A stretch of DNA of 64,000 nt from Myxococcales bacterium (GTDB lineage: Bacteria > Myxococcota_A > Polyangia > Polyangiales > Ga0077539). The notes under the pieces were generated by a model. That model had not been told where the DNA came from. It ran no database searches and saw only the letters and a program-made list of their open reading frames with translations. Location of the stretch: NCBI GenBank assembly GCA_016792845.1, contig JAEUKH010000040.1, forward strand, positions 1 through 64,000. Direction: 5' to 3'. How positions within the stretch are numbered: position 1 is the first letter of the stretch; each line of letters begins with the position of its first letter. Positions 56,365-63,356 of the stretch are shown here, piece by piece. Both the position numbers and the translations under genes were made by a program.

Positions 56365-56450
56365 ATTGACAGGTTATGTCACACGTTGAGCGCCTCGGTG
56401 CTTGACGGGTGTTCAGTGAAGGCGCACGGTCGCCCCACGAGGATCGAACG

Positions 56451-58682
56451 ATGACGACAGACGGCAACAACGACGAGGCTGGGGTCTCAGAGAAAGAGAA
56501 GACGGGTCGTCGGGCCACGGCCGAAGCGATGGCGCAGAAGCAGCGCGAGATCTCGGTGAGCGAGTTCTTCACGAAGAATCGCCATCTTCTCGGCTTCGAC
56601 AACCCCGCCAAGGCGCTCTTGACGACCATCAAAGAGGCCGTCGACAACGCCCTCGACGCCTGCGAAGAGGCCGGCATCTTGCCGAGCATCGAGGTCGCGA
56701 TCGAAGAGGTCTCCGACGGTCGGTATCGCGTGCGGGTCGAAGACAACGGCCCGGGCATTGTGAAAGAGCAAATTCCGAAGATCTTCGCGAAGTTGCTTTA
56801 TGGCTCGAAGTTTCACCGGCTCCGGCAGTCGCGCGGCCAGCAGGGCATCGGCATCTCGGCGGCGGGCATGTACGGCCAGCTGACGACGGGCAAGCCTGTG
56901 GTGATCGTGTCAAAGATCGGCAAGGGCCGCCCGGCCTGGCGACTCGAAGTGCGCATCGACTCGCGCACCAACAACCCCGAGGTGCTCAACAAAGACCGCG
57001 ACGTGACCGTCCCGTGGGAGAAAGACCACGGCACCGCCGTCGAGATCGAGCTCACGGGCCTTTACCGCGCGGGTCGCACGAGCGTCGACGCGTACCTCGA
57101 ACAGACCGTCGTCGCGAACCCGCACCTTGAACTGAGCTACAAGCCCCCGCGGGGCAACCCTGTTCATTACCCGCGGGTCGCCGAGGTCTTGCCGCCCGAG
57201 GCCCAAGAGATCAAGCCCCACCCCCACGGGGTCGAGCTTGGGATGCTGCTGAAGATCCTCCAAGAGGCCGGGCCTCGTAGCGTGCGAGACACGCTGATGG
57301 AGGAGTTTTCGAGGGTCACGGGCCCCGTCGCCGACGAGATCTGTCGACGCGCCGACGTCGACCCGACGGCGCTCGCCGCGCGGCTCACGGGCGACCGCGT
57401 CGAGGCCATCCACGGGGTGATGCTGAGCTCGCACGCGACGCTGCCGCCGATCAAGCGCTTCACGGCGCGGCTCGGCAAGGCCGACGGCAACCTGAAAGAC
57501 GAGCTCCTCGACGAGGGCACGGGGTTTACGCCGGGGCTCGTTGAGACTGTGATCCGCAAGGCCGGGCTCGAGCCCTCGCACAAGGCGCGGCTCGCGACAC
57601 CGTTGCAGGTTGAGTCGGTGTACGAGGCGCTCAGGGCGAGCCAGGTGAAGATCCTGCCGCCGCCGGCGACCTGCGTCGTGCCGGTGGGCGAAGAGCTCAT
57701 TCGCAAGGGGCTCGAGCGGCGCTTCAAGGCCGACCTGATCATTTCGCACACTCGGCCTCCGGCGGTGTACCGGGGTAACCCCTTCGTGGTCGAGGCGGGC
57801 ATCGCGTTTGGGGGCTCGCTGCCCCGCGACGAGGCCGCCGAGCTCTTGCGCTTCGCCAACCGGGTGCCGCTGCTCTACCAGCCCCGCGCCTGCGCCATCA
57901 CCGAAGCGGTCACGAAGGTCGATTGGAAGGCGTACGGACTCCAGCAGCGCCGCGGCGAGCTGCCTGTTGGGCCCCTCGCGATCTTCGTGCACCTCGCCAG
58001 CGTGTGGGTGCCCTTCACGAGCGAGGCCAAAGAGGCCGTCGCGCACTACGACGACATCGTGCGCGAAATTCGCATGGCTCTCATGGAGTGCGGCCGCAAG
58101 CTCGGGGTCTGGGTCAAGGCCCAAGAGGCCGAGAAGTGGGAGCTCGAGCGGAAGACCCTCTTTGAAAAGTACATTCAAGAGTTGTCGGCGTCGATTCACG
58201 CCATCACCGGCGTCTCTGAAGAGAAGGTGAAAGATGACTTCTACGCCGCGCTCCCGAAGCATGTGAAGCTGCCCTCGCCGAAGCCGAGCGGCGACGGGGG
58301 CCCTGGCGCCGCGGCGGGCGCGTCGCTGCCTGAGAGCGTGACCGCCGACGAGGGCGGAGGCGCACCCGAGGGGGCGGCCCAAGACGCGGCGACCGAGGGC
58401 GTTGAGGGGGCCGACGCGCCCGCGGGGGAGGCCGAGGCCGAGGGTGAGGCCGAGGGCGAGGCCGAGGTGGTGTCGATGGCCGCGCACAGGGCGCAGCGAC
58501 GCCCGGTGAGCTTTGAAGAGGGCGAAGACGCGCAGCAGTCGTTCGGCGGCCCCGCGTTCGAAGATGTGACGGGCGGGCGAGGGCGCACCGCGGCGGCGAT
58601 CGAGGCCCGCGGCGCGGCGCGCACCATGAAGGCCGCGGCGGGGGGGCGTAAAGCGAAGCTCCAACCCGAAGAGGGAGTTTGA
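56451..58682 (+). CDS. top6B: DNA topoisomerase VI subunit B
   Basis: A 743-residue ATPase subunit of topo VI, a type IIB enzyme mainly archaeal. GHKL motifs: [15 protein letters not shown] with catalytic Glu62 and Asn66, [11 protein letters not shown] (97 onward), and [18 protein letters not shown] (127 onward). The transducer region includes [10 protein letters not shown] and the later conserved strands (PPLYRG-type [16 protein letters not shown]). After about residue 620 the protein has an acidic Gly/Glu/Ala-rich tail and a basic end, which archaeal Top6B lacks. Start at ATG 56451. The A subunit starts 3 bp after its stop with a GAGGGAG ribosome site. Confidence 0.95.
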
Positions 58683-58685
58683 TCG

Positions 58686-59780
58686 ATGGACGAGCGTGAC
58701 ACCAAGACACTTGAGAAGATCAGGGCGCTTGCCTTCCAAGCGCTCGCTGAGGTTCGCGCGGGGAAGAACCCGCACCTCTCGATCCCCGTGCGGGCCTTGT
58801 CGAATGTGAGCTTCGACGAGCGCGAGCGGGTCATCAGGCTCGGCGACAACAAGCAGCAGCGGGCCTTCTTTCACTTCAAGCAGGCCAAGCTCTTCATGCA
58901 GACCTTCTTGATCGCTGAGAAGTGCAAGAAGCTCATCGAGGCCGGGGCGACCACCAGCATTCGTGACATCTATTACGATGCCAAGCACACCATCGCCGGG
59001 AGCCGCGAGAACACCTTCGACGACCAGGCCGAGAGCGACCCCGTCATCGAAGACCTCGAGGTCACCATCGACGCGCTCCGCGAAGAGCTGCACCTCCGCG
59101 CTGAGAACCGCGGCGCCATGGTCGGGCCGATGACCATCGTCGACACCGGCGACACCATCGACCTGCGCCGCATGGGCTCGGGCGGGTGGAGCGTGCCCTC
59201 GATCGTCGAAGAGAATCGCATCTCTTTCACCAAGCACGAGGCGAAGTTCGTGCTCTTCGTCGAGAAGGGCGCGGTGTGGTCGCGCCTCAATGAAGACAAA
59301 TTCTGGGCGGCCCACCAGTGCATCCTCATTCACGGCGGGGGCATGGCTGCGCGGGGCACGCGTCGGCTCCTGCGGCGCATGCACGAAGAGCTCAACCTGC
59401 CGGTGTATGTGATCACCGACAATGACCCCTGGGGCTTCTACATCTACTCGGTGATCAAGCAAGGGAGCATCAACCTCGCCTACGAGTCGATGCGGATGGC
59501 CGTGCCGCAGGCGAGGTTTCTCGGCGTCTCAAGCTTCGACCCAGAGCGCTTCGACTTCCCCGGGAGCGTGGCCATCAAGGTCGAAGACGAAGACGAGCGC
59601 CGGGCCGAGCAGCTCTTGAAATACGATTGGTTTCAAGACAAGCGCTGGCAAGCCGAGATCAAGCAGATGCTCAAGACGAAGAACAAGTACGAGATCGAAG
59701 CCCTCTCGTCGAAGGGCATTCGGTACATCACGCAGCAGTACATCCCCCAGAAGCTTGAGCAGAAGATCTGGCTCGATTGA
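58686..59780 (+). CDS. top6A: DNA topoisomerase VI subunit A (Spo11-like)
   Basis: A 364-residue DNA-cleaving subunit, relative of meiotic Spo11. The winged-helix motif SIRDIYYDAKH holds the catalytic Tyr (Tyr96/Tyr97). The Toprim domain has a metal-binding Glu in FVLFVEKGAVW and Asp pair in VYVITDNDPWGFYIYS. The C-terminus runs to KLEQKIWLD. Together with Top6B it should relax supercoils and unlink DNA in an ATP-dependent manner. Full length and all key residues present, so the pair appears active. Confidence 0.95.
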   Translation: MDERDTKTLEKIRALAFQALAEVRAGKNPHLSIPVRALSNVSFDERERVIRLGDNKQQRAFFHFKQAKLFMQTFLIAEKCKKLIEAGATTSIRDIYYDAKHTIAGSRENTFDDQAESDPVIEDLEVTIDALREELHLRAENRGAMVGPMTIVDTGDTIDLRRMGSGGWSVPSIVEENRISFTKHEAKFVLFVEKGAVWSRLNEDKFWAAHQCILIHGGGMAARGTRRLLRRMHEELNLPVYVITDNDPWGFYIYSVIKQGSINLAYESMRMAVPQARFLGVSSFDPERFDFPGSVAIKVEDEDERRAEQLLKYDWFQDKRWQAEIKQMLKTKNKYEIEALSSKGIRYITQQYIPQKLEQKIWLD

Positions 59781-59860: not shown

Positions 59861-60667
59861 ATGAGCGACCCCTTCGCGTACGAGACCCTCTCTGCCCTCT
59901 CGGTTCAGTTTGATGCGGGCTACGCCCTGGTCACCCTCAACCGCCCCGAGCGCATGAACGCCCTCTCGCGGGTGCTCTTGCGAGAGCTCGGCGCGCTCTT
60001 CCGCGCCCTCGCCGTAGAGCCCCGGGCCCGGGTCATCATTGTTACTGGCTCAGGCGAGAAGGCGTTCTGCGCGGGCGCCGACCTCAAGGAGCGCCAGTCG
60101 ATGACCGAAGACGACGTGCGGGCCCTCTTGGGCGTGTACCGCGACGCGTTCGGCGCCATCGACCACTGCCCCAAGCCCGTCGTGGCGGCCATTCAGGGCG
60201 TGGCCCTCGGGGGCGGCTTCGAGCTTGCCCTCGCGTGCGACCTCAGGGTGGCCGCGCCGAACGCGGTGATCGGCCTCCCCGAGACCTCGCTGGCCATCAT
60301 CCCCGGGGCCGGGGGCACGCAGCGGCTCTCGCGGCTCATCGGCCCGGGGCGCGCGAAGGAGCTGATCCTCCTCGCGAAGAAGATGCCCGCCCGAGAGGGC
60401 CTCGGGCTCGGCCTCGTGACGGCCCTCGCGGCAGAGGGCGAGTCGCCGGTCGAGGCCGCCAAGCAGCTCACCGCCTCGCTCGTGAACGGCGCGCCCATCG
60501 CCCTCGCCGCCGCCATGGAGGCCATCGACCTCGGGGCCGACCTCGACCTCGAAGCGGGCTTTCTCCTCGAAGCGCGATGTTATGAGAAGACCCTCGGCTC
60601 GAACGACCGCCGTGAGGCCCTCGCGGCCTTCTCTGAAGGGCGAAAGCCTGTCTACACCGGCACCTGA
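59861..60667 (+). CDS. methylglutaconyl-CoA hydratase-like (AUH/LiuC)
   Basis: A 268-residue crotonase with both catalytic Glu: GGGFELALACDLRVAA and GLPETSLAIIPGAGGTQRL. The segment CAGADLKERQSMTEDDV and the end ARCYEKTLGSNDRREALAAF, GRKPVYTG closely follow AUH-type methylglutaconyl-CoA hydratases of leucine degradation. In myxobacteria such enzymes also serve iso-branched lipid supply. Ordinary enoyl-CoA hydratase is the alternative. Start at ATG 59861 (MSDPFAYETL). No other leucine genes nearby. Confidence 0.88.
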   Translation: MSDPFAYETLSALSVQFDAGYALVTLNRPERMNALSRVLLRELGALFRALAVEPRARVIIVTGSGEKAFCAGADLKERQSMTEDDVRALLGVYRDAFGAIDHCPKPVVAAIQGVALGGGFELALACDLRVAAPNAVIGLPETSLAIIPGAGGTQRLSRLIGPGRAKELILLAKKMPAREGLGLGLVTALAAEGESPVEAAKQLTASLVNGAPIALAAAMEAIDLGADLDLEAGFLLEARCYEKTLGSNDRREALAAFSEGRKPVYTGT

Positions 60668-60805: not shown

Positions 60806-60902
60806 CGCAATGAATGCGTGTTATGCGGGGCTCGTTTGGGGGCGCCCGCCGACGCCACGCGGGCGGTGGGCTGTCTCTCGTGTGTTCTCGGAGGTTTCTT
60901 TC

Positions 60903-63356
60903 ATGCAACGATCAGCACGTTGGGCGCTCTGCGGTGTGGTCGCAGGGTTGATGTCGGCGACACAAGCGGCAGCGCAACCGCGCCCACCGGTACGTCCGAC
61001 GCCGGCTCGTCCAGGGGCCACGCAGCCGGCGCGTCCGGGCACGGGGCCTGCGGCGCAGGTGACTCCGGCCGCGCAGGTGGTCGAGACGCCGCCGCCGCCC
61101 CCGCCGCCGCCCCCGCCGCCGCCTCCTCCGCCGCCTCCGCCGCTGCGTGTGGCGGTCACCGCTGGGGTCAATGGTCAGTTCACGCCGCTCACCTGCGGCG
61201 GTGGCGACGCGACCGCGCCGGTGCTCACGACGGTGGCCTCGCAGCTCGCCGCGGAGCCCAACACCCTCGGCATCGACGCGGGCGACCTCTTGGGCGCCGC
61301 TGCGGTGAGCCGCTTTGTGGTCGAGCACGACGCCGCGGGCCTCGCCGCCGCGGTGCACGCCGCGGGGCTCCGCGCCTTGGCGGTGGGTCATCGCGACCTC
61401 TCGTCAGACCGCGCGGCCTTTGTGGCCGGTTCGCGCGCCCTCAACGATCGCGGCGTGCCGCACGTCTTGTCGAACCTCCACTGCGAAGGCGCGGGGGCGT
61501 CGCTCTGCAGCGTCGTGCGTGACGCGGGCGATGCGCCGGTGATCCTCGATCACCCGAGCGGCCGCGTCGCGGTGGTGGCCCTGGTGTCGCCTGAGACGCT
61601 CTCGGGCATCGCGCCCGACCGTCGCGCGGGCTTGACCCTCGACCCGCTCGCCGATGCGCTCCCGCGTGAAGTGCGGCGTGCGCGGGCGGCGGGCGCGACC
61701 CGGGTGGTGGTGACCCTCGACCCGACCTATCACCATGAGCTCGACGAGGCGCTCTCGCTCGGCGGGGCCTTCGAGCCCGGTGAGGGGCCTGATGTGCTGG
61801 TGGTCCAAGACCTGCCGTCGGGCATCACCTCGATGGAGGCTTCACGCTCGGGCGTTCAGGTCGTCTCGACGCGTTGGGGCGGGGCGGTGGTGCTCGAGCC
61901 CGGGGCCGCGCGGGTTGCGCGCCCTGCACGGAGCGGCGATGCGCCCGAGGCGGTCACGCAGTTTGTCACGGGGGCCCGTCAGTGGCTCTGCGACACCTAC
62001 GGGCGCCCGCTCGCGGGGGGCAGGCTTGAGAGCGGCATCGACCGCGACCAGTTCGCGGGCTTGTACCTCGATGTGCTGCGCGATCGGGCCGAGGCCGAGG
62101 TGGCGATCATCAACCGTTCGGCGGTGCGCAACCCGAGCGGGCTCTTTCCGATCAGCGGCGGCATCACCCCGCTGACGGTGGCCGCGGCGCTGCCCTTCGC
62201 CGACGAAGTGCGCCGTATCACGGTCACCGGCGCGGTGCTCAAGGCCTTCGCGACGGCGAGCCGGGCCTCGGGCTTCTACCTCCGCGGCGTCACCACCGAG
62301 GGGGGCGTCAAGGTCAACGGCCGTCCCATCGACGACGCGCAGCAGTACACCGTGGTGACCACGGGCTTTATCGCCGAGGGCGGCGACGGCGGCATCGGCG
62401 CGCAGGTGTCGGGCGCGCGCTTCGGCACCAGCACGCCCCAAGAGGTCTTCACCGCGTGGCTCGACCAGCCGCGGAGCGGCAACATCCTCACGGCGCCGAA
62501 CAACCCCGCCGAGCACACGCGCTGGGTGTTTCGTGCCAACGCCGACCTCGCGTTTTCGAGCACCACCATCAACGGCAACCCGCTGAGCGCCGGGGCCCTC
62601 CGCTTCGACGACCCGCAGCTCTCGCGCGCCCAGAGCATCAACCTGCGCTTCGACGGCGCGGTGCGCTTCGACGCCGACCACCCGGTCTACACCTGGGACA
62701 ACGAAGTGAGGCTCCGTTACGGCCGCGCTTCGCAGATCGCGTCGCCTTCCGTCGACGTGCCCAACCCGCCGTCGACGGGCTTCATCGAGAACCTCGACCT
62801 CGTGACCTACAACACCGCGGCGACGCTGCGATGGTTCCGCAACCATCGCGAGTGGTACATGCCGCTGCCGACGTTCTTGGGGTACGTCGAAACCGAGCTG
62901 AACGGCCCGCCGACGCCGCGTCAGCCTGATTTTCACCACGTCCTCGTGCGTCCGACGGTGGGCTTCCGCTTCGAGCTCCTTGAGCGCATGACGTTGAACA
63001 TCACGGGCGGTCTCAACTGGGCCGAGGTGCTCGGCCCGCAAGACGTCGCCGCGAACAAGCCGCAGTTCGCCATCGTCACGACCCTGCAAGCGCGCACGGG
63101 CACGCTCTTCACCATCGGCACCCGCGCCCTCGAAGGCGGGTTCTCGATTGACTACACCCTCGCAGATCCGGGCAACCTGAACGGCCAGACCTTCCGTGGC
63201 TCGGGGCGCTTGTCGTTGCCCTTGTTCCGCCCGCTGGCGCTGACGCTCGGGTATGACATTTTCGCGCGCCGCGACGAGAACCGCGATTGGGGTGTGGGCC
63301 ACGACACCACCATCGGCCTGCGGTACTCGTTTACCAGCGCCTTCCAGACCTTCTGA
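60903..63356 (+). CDS. 5'-nucleotidase-like domain fused to outer-membrane barrel
   Basis: An 817-residue exported protein. Start ATG 60903 follows GGAGG (60890-60894). Signal peptide MQRSARWALCGVVAGLMSATQAAAQ; a Pro/Ala-rich linker ends in 18 consecutive Pro (63-80). Residues about 83-350 have the metallophosphoesterase layout of UshA-type nucleotidases, but metal ligands are lost: IDAGDLLG (124-131) is kept while GNHE is GHRD (162-165) and the late GHSH is missing. About 379-530 is the nucleotidase C-terminal domain (VAIINRSAVRNPSGLFP, GFIAEGGDGGIG). Residues about 545-817 are a barrel, ending in RYSFTSAFQTF. Probably a binding, not a catalytic, surface protein. Confidence 0.85.
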   Translation: MQRSARWALCGVVAGLMSATQAAAQPRPPVRPTPARPGATQPARPGTGPAAQVTPAAQVVETPPPPPPPPPPPPPPPPPPLRVAVTAGVNGQFTPLTCGGGDATAPVLTTVASQLAAEPNTLGIDAGDLLGAAAVSRFVVEHDAAGLAAAVHAAGLRALAVGHRDLSSDRAAFVAGSRALNDRGVPHVLSNLHCEGAGASLCSVVRDAGDAPVILDHPSGRVAVVALVSPETLSGIAPDRRAGLTLDPLADALPREVRRARAAGATRVVVTLDPTYHHELDEALSLGGAFEPGEGPDVLVVQDLPSGITSMEASRSGVQVVSTRWGGAVVLEPGAARVARPARSGDAPEAVTQFVTGARQWLCDTYGRPLAGGRLESGIDRDQFAGLYLDVLRDRAEAEVAIINRSAVRNPSGLFPISGGITPLTVAAALPFADEVRRITVTGAVLKAFATASRASGFYLRGVTTEGGVKVNGRPIDDAQQYTVVTTGFIAEGGDGGIGAQVSGARFGTSTPQEVFTAWLDQPRSGNILTAPNNPAEHTRWVFRANADLAFSSTTINGNPLSAGALRFDDPQLSRAQSINLRFDGAVRFDADHPVYTWDNEVRLRYGRASQIASPSVDVPNPPSTGFIENLDLVTYNTAATLRWFRNHREWYMPLPTFLGYVETELNGPPTPRQPDFHHVLVRPTVGFRFELLERMTLNITGGLNWAEVLGPQDVAANKPQFAIVTTLQARTGTLFTIGTRALEGGFSIDYTLADPGNLNGQTFRGSGRLSLPLFRPLALTLGYDIFARRDENRDWGVGHDTTIGLRYSFTSAFQTF

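Follow-up and report, generated by a model that had tools for sequence, protein, structure and literature searches.

A conserved Myxococcota protein joining a probably inactive nucleotidase fold to a predicted outer-membrane beta-barrel

Gene layout and neighborhood

Toward the end of the window (the whole 64,000-nucleotide stretch of Myxococcales DNA that was analyzed) lies a complete gene for a protein with a putative signal peptide, a Pro/Ala-rich spacer, a two-domain nucleotidase-like ectodomain and a predicted C-terminal beta-barrel (Table 1). The open reading frame claimed by an earlier note on this DNA is real: it encodes 817 aa and follows a GGAGG ribosome-binding site. An alternative, longer frame starting at 60582 overlaps the enoyl-CoA hydratase gene upstream. 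The cleavage point of the signal peptide is an estimate by eye, and relatives have similar A-x-A-Q ends.

We found that the Pro/Ala-rich spacer is largely disordered (AlphaFold2 pLDDT of 25-37 as far as residue 60) and is not conserved in the paralogues. The run of 18 Pro had been described in the earlier note as the linker between the nucleotidase and the barrel; instead, it lies downstream of the signal peptide and ahead of the nucleotidase-like domain, and this N-terminal position rules out a linking role. The run is also missing from both paralogues and from most relatives. The true connection between the nucleotidase-like part and the barrel is about 19 residues long, is conserved by near relatives and is well ordered in the model.

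Table 1. Features of the gene and of its predicted product, with positions in the window
Feature	Residues	Positions	Strand	Remark
Ribosome-binding site GGAGG		60890..60894	+	From sequence; eight bases ahead of the ATG at 60903
Complete gene, stop included		60903..63356	+	817 aa
Putative signal peptide, MQRSARWALCGVVAGLMSATQAAA	1-24	60903..60974	+	From sequence
Pro/Ala-rich spacer	25-80	60975..61142	+	Ahead of the ectodomain
Run of exactly 18 Pro	63-80	61089..61142	+	From sequence
Calcineurin-like (metallophosphatase-fold) domain without metal site	81-340	61143..61922	+	
Degenerate motif 1, D-x-H to G88-V-N90	88-90	61164..61172	+	UshA D41/H43
Cys98, near-invariant	98	61194..61196	+	Proposed partner Cys363
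Degenerate motif 3, GNHE to GHRD	162-165	61386..61397	+	
Cys194 and Cys202, near-invariant	194, 202	61482..61508	+	
Position of UshA H217, here D273	273	61719..61721	+	
Degenerate motif 5, GHxH to QDLP	302-305	61806..61817	+	
Cys363	363	61989..61991	+	End of the interdomain helix
5'-Nucleotidase C-terminal domain PF02872	about 367-530	62001..62492	+	F432, F489, GGDG 493-496
Ordered connection of ectodomain and barrel	521-539	62463..62519	+	PRxGDI..DPAxxT in near relatives
Predicted 12-stranded amphipathic outer-membrane beta-barrel	540-817	62520..63353	+	

Genes for DNA topoisomerase VI subunits B and A and for enoyl-CoA hydratase are kept upstream of the gene in the clade of the window, and also in the sister genus. 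In the window, the two topoisomerase VI subunits lie in tandem at 56409-59780 (666 and 557 bits); DNA topoisomerase VI is mainly archaeal. In another clade (g17/g18), the gene comes after genes for TIG-domain and IgGFc-binding-domain proteins (PF17517, E 2.3e-42 for the latter), an arrangement conserved in three genomes (L069:4451-8703). No neighbor is common to the clades, the idea of an operon partner was rejected, and in the clades compared we found no conserved neighbor that points to nucleotide uptake or signaling.

The nucleotidase-like ectodomain

E. coli UshA has a dimetal center and an Asp-His dyad in its N-terminal domain and binds the base with its C-terminal domain; catalysis needs a 96 degree rotation of the domains (PMC8475336). 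As the earlier note had proposed, the GNHE and GHSH motifs are replaced in the window protein (by GHRD and QDLP), and the same losses occur in 46 barrel-fused relatives. Of the UshA metal ligands (D41, H43, D84, H217 etc.), D84 alone has an equivalent in the window protein (D128), and a Pfam search recognized PF02872 only and not the PF00149 metallophosphatase domain. The full metal-site set is retained in 0 of the 46 barrel-fused proteins; the Asp of the catalytic dyad is kept in 0/46 and the His in 3/46. Being common to all 46 barrel-fused relatives examined, these losses go beyond chance.

Nine barrel-less relatives in these alignments (L088, L089, L090, L091, L092, L094, L098, L102 and L105) served as controls and retain D-x-H, G-D, G-N-H-E, the Asp and G-H-x-H; hence, the alignment is able to detect the motifs where they are present. 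The earlier claim of a degenerate, catalytically dead nucleotidase is thus well supported by the sequence, by structure prediction and by a metal site that is lost throughout the family, and annotating such a protein as an active 5'-nucleotidase from PF02872 alone would be wrong.

PF02872 is matched with E 7.9e-14 (52.5 bits versus a cut-off of 23.6), and the GGDG motif is in place, both as previously claimed. AlphaFold2 modeled the full protein from 36 sequences with pLDDT 84.4 and pTM 0.78, a prediction that is confident for both halves. Searching the PDB with the family profile gave the nucleotidase 3ivd (2.5e-19) as well as UshA and CD73. With the ectodomain model, Foldseek found 3ivd at E 2e-21 (TM 0.69 over the target) and UshA/CD73-type structures at E 2e-21 to 1e-16; TM was 0.62-0.66 for closed CD73/UshA structures versus 0.44-0.52 for open ones. 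AlphaFold2 and Foldseek agree on the two-domain fold with its interdomain helix (residues 349-366). We therefore predict, with good confidence, that the ectodomain has a nucleotidase-like fold in a closed-like arrangement.

Several residues of the pocket are also retained. F432 and F489 correspond to F429 and F498 of UshA, the aromatics that sandwich the base. Of 18 near relatives, 16 share F432, which several distant members have lost; at position 489, 37 of 42 barrel-fused proteins carry F or Y. R409, the equivalent of UshA R410, is kept in 10/18 near relatives. The nucleotide-binding receptor suggested in the earlier note is thus possible as judged from these residues: the aromatics are kept, but UshA R375 and R379 are not. 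However, the local active controls likewise show no Arg aligned at these two positions, and the loss is therefore of little weight.

Exactly four cysteines (98, 194, 202 and 363) occur in the mature protein. Of 42 barrel-fused proteins, 39 have all four, and the barrel-less relatives lack them as a set. In L049, 194 and 202 are lost together while 98 and 363 are kept; this joint loss, in one sequence, suggests that there are probably two disulfides, 194-202 and 98-363.

The cysteines also bear on whether the protein could still be an enzyme with another active site, through a different metal arrangement or cysteine chemistry comparable to that of the PCGU/PCGC UshA-like (seleno)proteins (NF041198). 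The N-domain is related to these proteins: 9 of 23 members of the window protein's family match NF041198 weakly (for the window protein, E 0.18 and 10.3 bits versus a 275-bit cut-off), and the profile of the window protein's family aligns by hhalign (98.1% probability) with a PCGC protein of the same genome (L059) at D-L-x-G-x-x-x-P-x-C. Cys98 falls on the last cysteine of that protein. However, the window protein's family conserves no other set of ligands, the P-C-G-C pair is absent, and Cys98 has a conserved candidate partner in Cys363. We consider a relocated active site very improbable.

The pocket also bears on a purely structural role, in which the dead nucleotidase would bind no small molecule and be a rigid spacer or a platform for peptidoglycan or other proteins of the envelope. 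This would fit the loss of the substrate-contacting arginines and the variation of pocket residues in distant members, and the Pro/Ala-rich arm in the clade of the window could reach through the periplasm. However, the window's own family conserves N404, the aromatics of the pocket and, for the most part, the GGDG motif, which is beyond what a spacer needs, and we regard a structural role as unlikely.

The barrel and its topology

In the full-length model, the 12 strands are built from residues 540-815. Modeled alone, the barrel reached pLDDT 85.0 and pTM 0.81 (AlphaFold2). In the family average, each of its 12 strands has one more hydrophobic and one more polar face, and the connections between strands alternate between long (20, 16, 19, 11, 6 and 5 residues) and short (3, 12, 2, 2 and 2 residues). 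Both ends of the barrel lie on the short-turn side. Its best Foldseek matches are outer-membrane barrels (OmpG, a COG4313 channel and NalP; TM 0.43 at most), and the barrel profile matched no sequence in the PDB. Hence, prediction bears out the C-terminal barrel of the earlier note: by prediction only, the protein shows the even number of amphipathic strands, the long and short loops and the signal peptide of an outer-membrane beta-barrel. The terminal Phe cited with it is present in the window protein and is not conserved in the family, where the C-terminal tails vary (..QVYSY, ..QTFSR, ..GRAVGP).

Within the barrel, some polar residues are conserved in the stretch encoded at 62796-62951 (residues 632-683): D632 and E665 in 34/34 family barrels, E663 in 27/34 and H679 in 24/30. 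These residues could line a pore or bind an ion.

Even-stranded outer-membrane barrels have both ends in the periplasm, and the short-turn side is the periplasmic one. In residues 521-539, ahead of strand 1, neither model has a helix of more than about three residues. The ends on the short-turn side, together with the 19 ordered residues that separate the last helix of the ectodomain from strand 1 and contain no pore helix, lead us to place the ectodomain in the periplasm. Hence, the ectodomain most likely lies on the periplasmic face of the barrel and not on the cell surface, and the surface display of the earlier note is unsupported.

Surface display would need the barrel to act like an autotransporter (type V secretion, as for EstA) that moves the nucleotidase-like passenger to the cell surface. 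The order of parts is the same (signal peptide, passenger and, at the C-terminus, a 12-stranded barrel whose last residue here is Phe), the barrels of EstA, NalP, Hbp and BrkA are among the Foldseek matches, and the 19 residues ahead of strand 1 could span the pore if extended. However, this connection is ordered, is conserved among near relatives and lacks the helix, and no autotransporter family was matched in Pfam or NCBIfam. Known autotransporter passengers are cysteine-poor, whereas the passenger here would be globular with four near-invariant cysteines. We doubt export of this kind and favor a periplasmic ectodomain.

Distribution, proposed role and comparison with known systems

The genome of the window has three copies that are about 40% identical (contigs C7, C30 and C25). 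Searching the contigs with the single protein gave no match, whereas the alignment of the three paralogues found four loci. Relatives are present in 13/13 searched genomes of the same family (at least one each), in 7/18 genomes of the order and in 15/59 genomes of the class, some matches being short in the last two, and other classes of the phylum also have full-length members (L080-L086). The same fusion is thus found elsewhere, within an in-depth search that covered the phylum Myxococcota; the named loci are from Myxococcales, Myxococcaceae or deltaproteobacterium MAGs. A chance frame or a decaying pseudogene is ruled out, since the frame is open in 13/13 genomes of the family and the pocket, cysteines and barrel are conserved. 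One match to the barrel region (L031; G028:C60:18455-19163) is split over two frames and holds one in-frame TGA, and it is possibly a broken copy.

Across 58 genomes of the phylum, nearly every match to the barrel profile belongs to a long fused reading frame; a barrel by itself is thus rare in the sampled genomes. In a quick tree of the ectodomain, from a sample drawn by similarity to the family, 42 barrel-fused proteins fall on one side of a branch with support 91, and the barrel-fusion label changes once versus 13.4 times with shuffled labels. Hence, in the sampled tree, barrel fusion is one event that goes with the loss of catalysis and with the conserved four-cysteine set. Since the sample was similarity-drawn, a barrel-fused active enzyme elsewhere is possible. 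Two long frames, L087 and L093 (938 and 1052 residues), group with the barrel-fused family on a deep branch. Cys194, Cys202 and Cys363 are missing from them, and their alignment at motif 1 is poor; we left them out of the core family, and they are possibly a separate fusion family.

We propose, giving it an even chance, that the pseudo-nucleotidase is a periplasmic ligand-binding or gating domain of the 12-stranded outer-membrane barrel. A two-domain fold of the UshA/CD73 type that has lost its dimetal center would hang at the periplasmic side of the barrel, joined to it by the short ordered connection. The inferred disulfides would brace this ectodomain, with Cys98-Cys363 fastening the interdomain helix, where active enzymes turn, to the loop that follows strand 1 at the former metal site. 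The protein would then function by binding and not by hydrolysis; its ligand would most likely be a nucleoside, a nucleotide or something similar, held in the pocket between F432 and F489, and at the barrel's inner mouth the ectodomain would act as receptor or gate. Counting against this proposal are the missing UshA R375 and R379, the partial retention of R409, the loss of F432 in several distant members, the lack of a conserved neighbor for nucleotide uptake or signaling in the clades compared and, for the barrel, the low TM-scores. The adhesin role offered in the earlier note found no specific support.

A bolder form of this proposal, which we hold to be quite improbable, is a phylum-wide channel in which the disulfide-braced pseudo-nucleotidase is the ligand-sensing plug or periplasmic gate of a 12-stranded pore, perhaps for nucleosides from prey or detritus. 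If a gate is the true role, an enzyme fold that once turned between open and closed would have lost its metals, been tied by a disulfide and become the plug of a pore.

The conserved, multi-copy family thus joins what is very probably a dead secreted nucleotidase to its own predicted outer-membrane barrel, and it is a candidate, open to testing, for a protein that recognizes nucleotides or nucleosides at the Myxococcota outer membrane. We found no earlier description of such a fusion in the literature searched, which was largely outside subscription journals; within the same scope, there was no paper on the PCGU selenoprotein or on a nucleotidase combined with a beta-barrel and a pseudoenzyme.

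Among known systems, the autotransporter EstA likewise has a signal peptide, an N-terminal hydrolase-fold domain and a C-terminal 12-stranded barrel; unlike EstA, the protein here has no predicted pore helix, a cysteine-containing ectodomain, no sequence match and an apparently inactive passenger. DUF3078 (PF11276) is matched by 15/34 family barrels (best E 4.1e-9) but not by the barrel of the window at E 0.1. The PCGU UshA-like (seleno)proteins share the related N-domain and, in distant members, a D-L-x-G....P-x-C stretch, whereas only the last Cys of the P-C-G-[CU] motif is kept here. Their relative L059 (L059:1378-3150; 239 bits versus the NF041198 cut-off of 275) carries several CxxCH haem motifs and no barrel, unlike the family of the window. 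In the phylum-wide search, several N-domain matches in other genomes carry one in-frame TGA, as is expected of PCGU selenoproteins. UshA/CD73 5'-nucleotidases (PF00149 + PF02872) have the same domain order, interdomain helix, fold, GGDG motif and base-sandwich aromatics; in contrast to them, the protein described here has lost the metal ligands and the dyad, has no detectable PF00149, and has gained four conserved cysteines and a predicted C-terminal membrane barrel.
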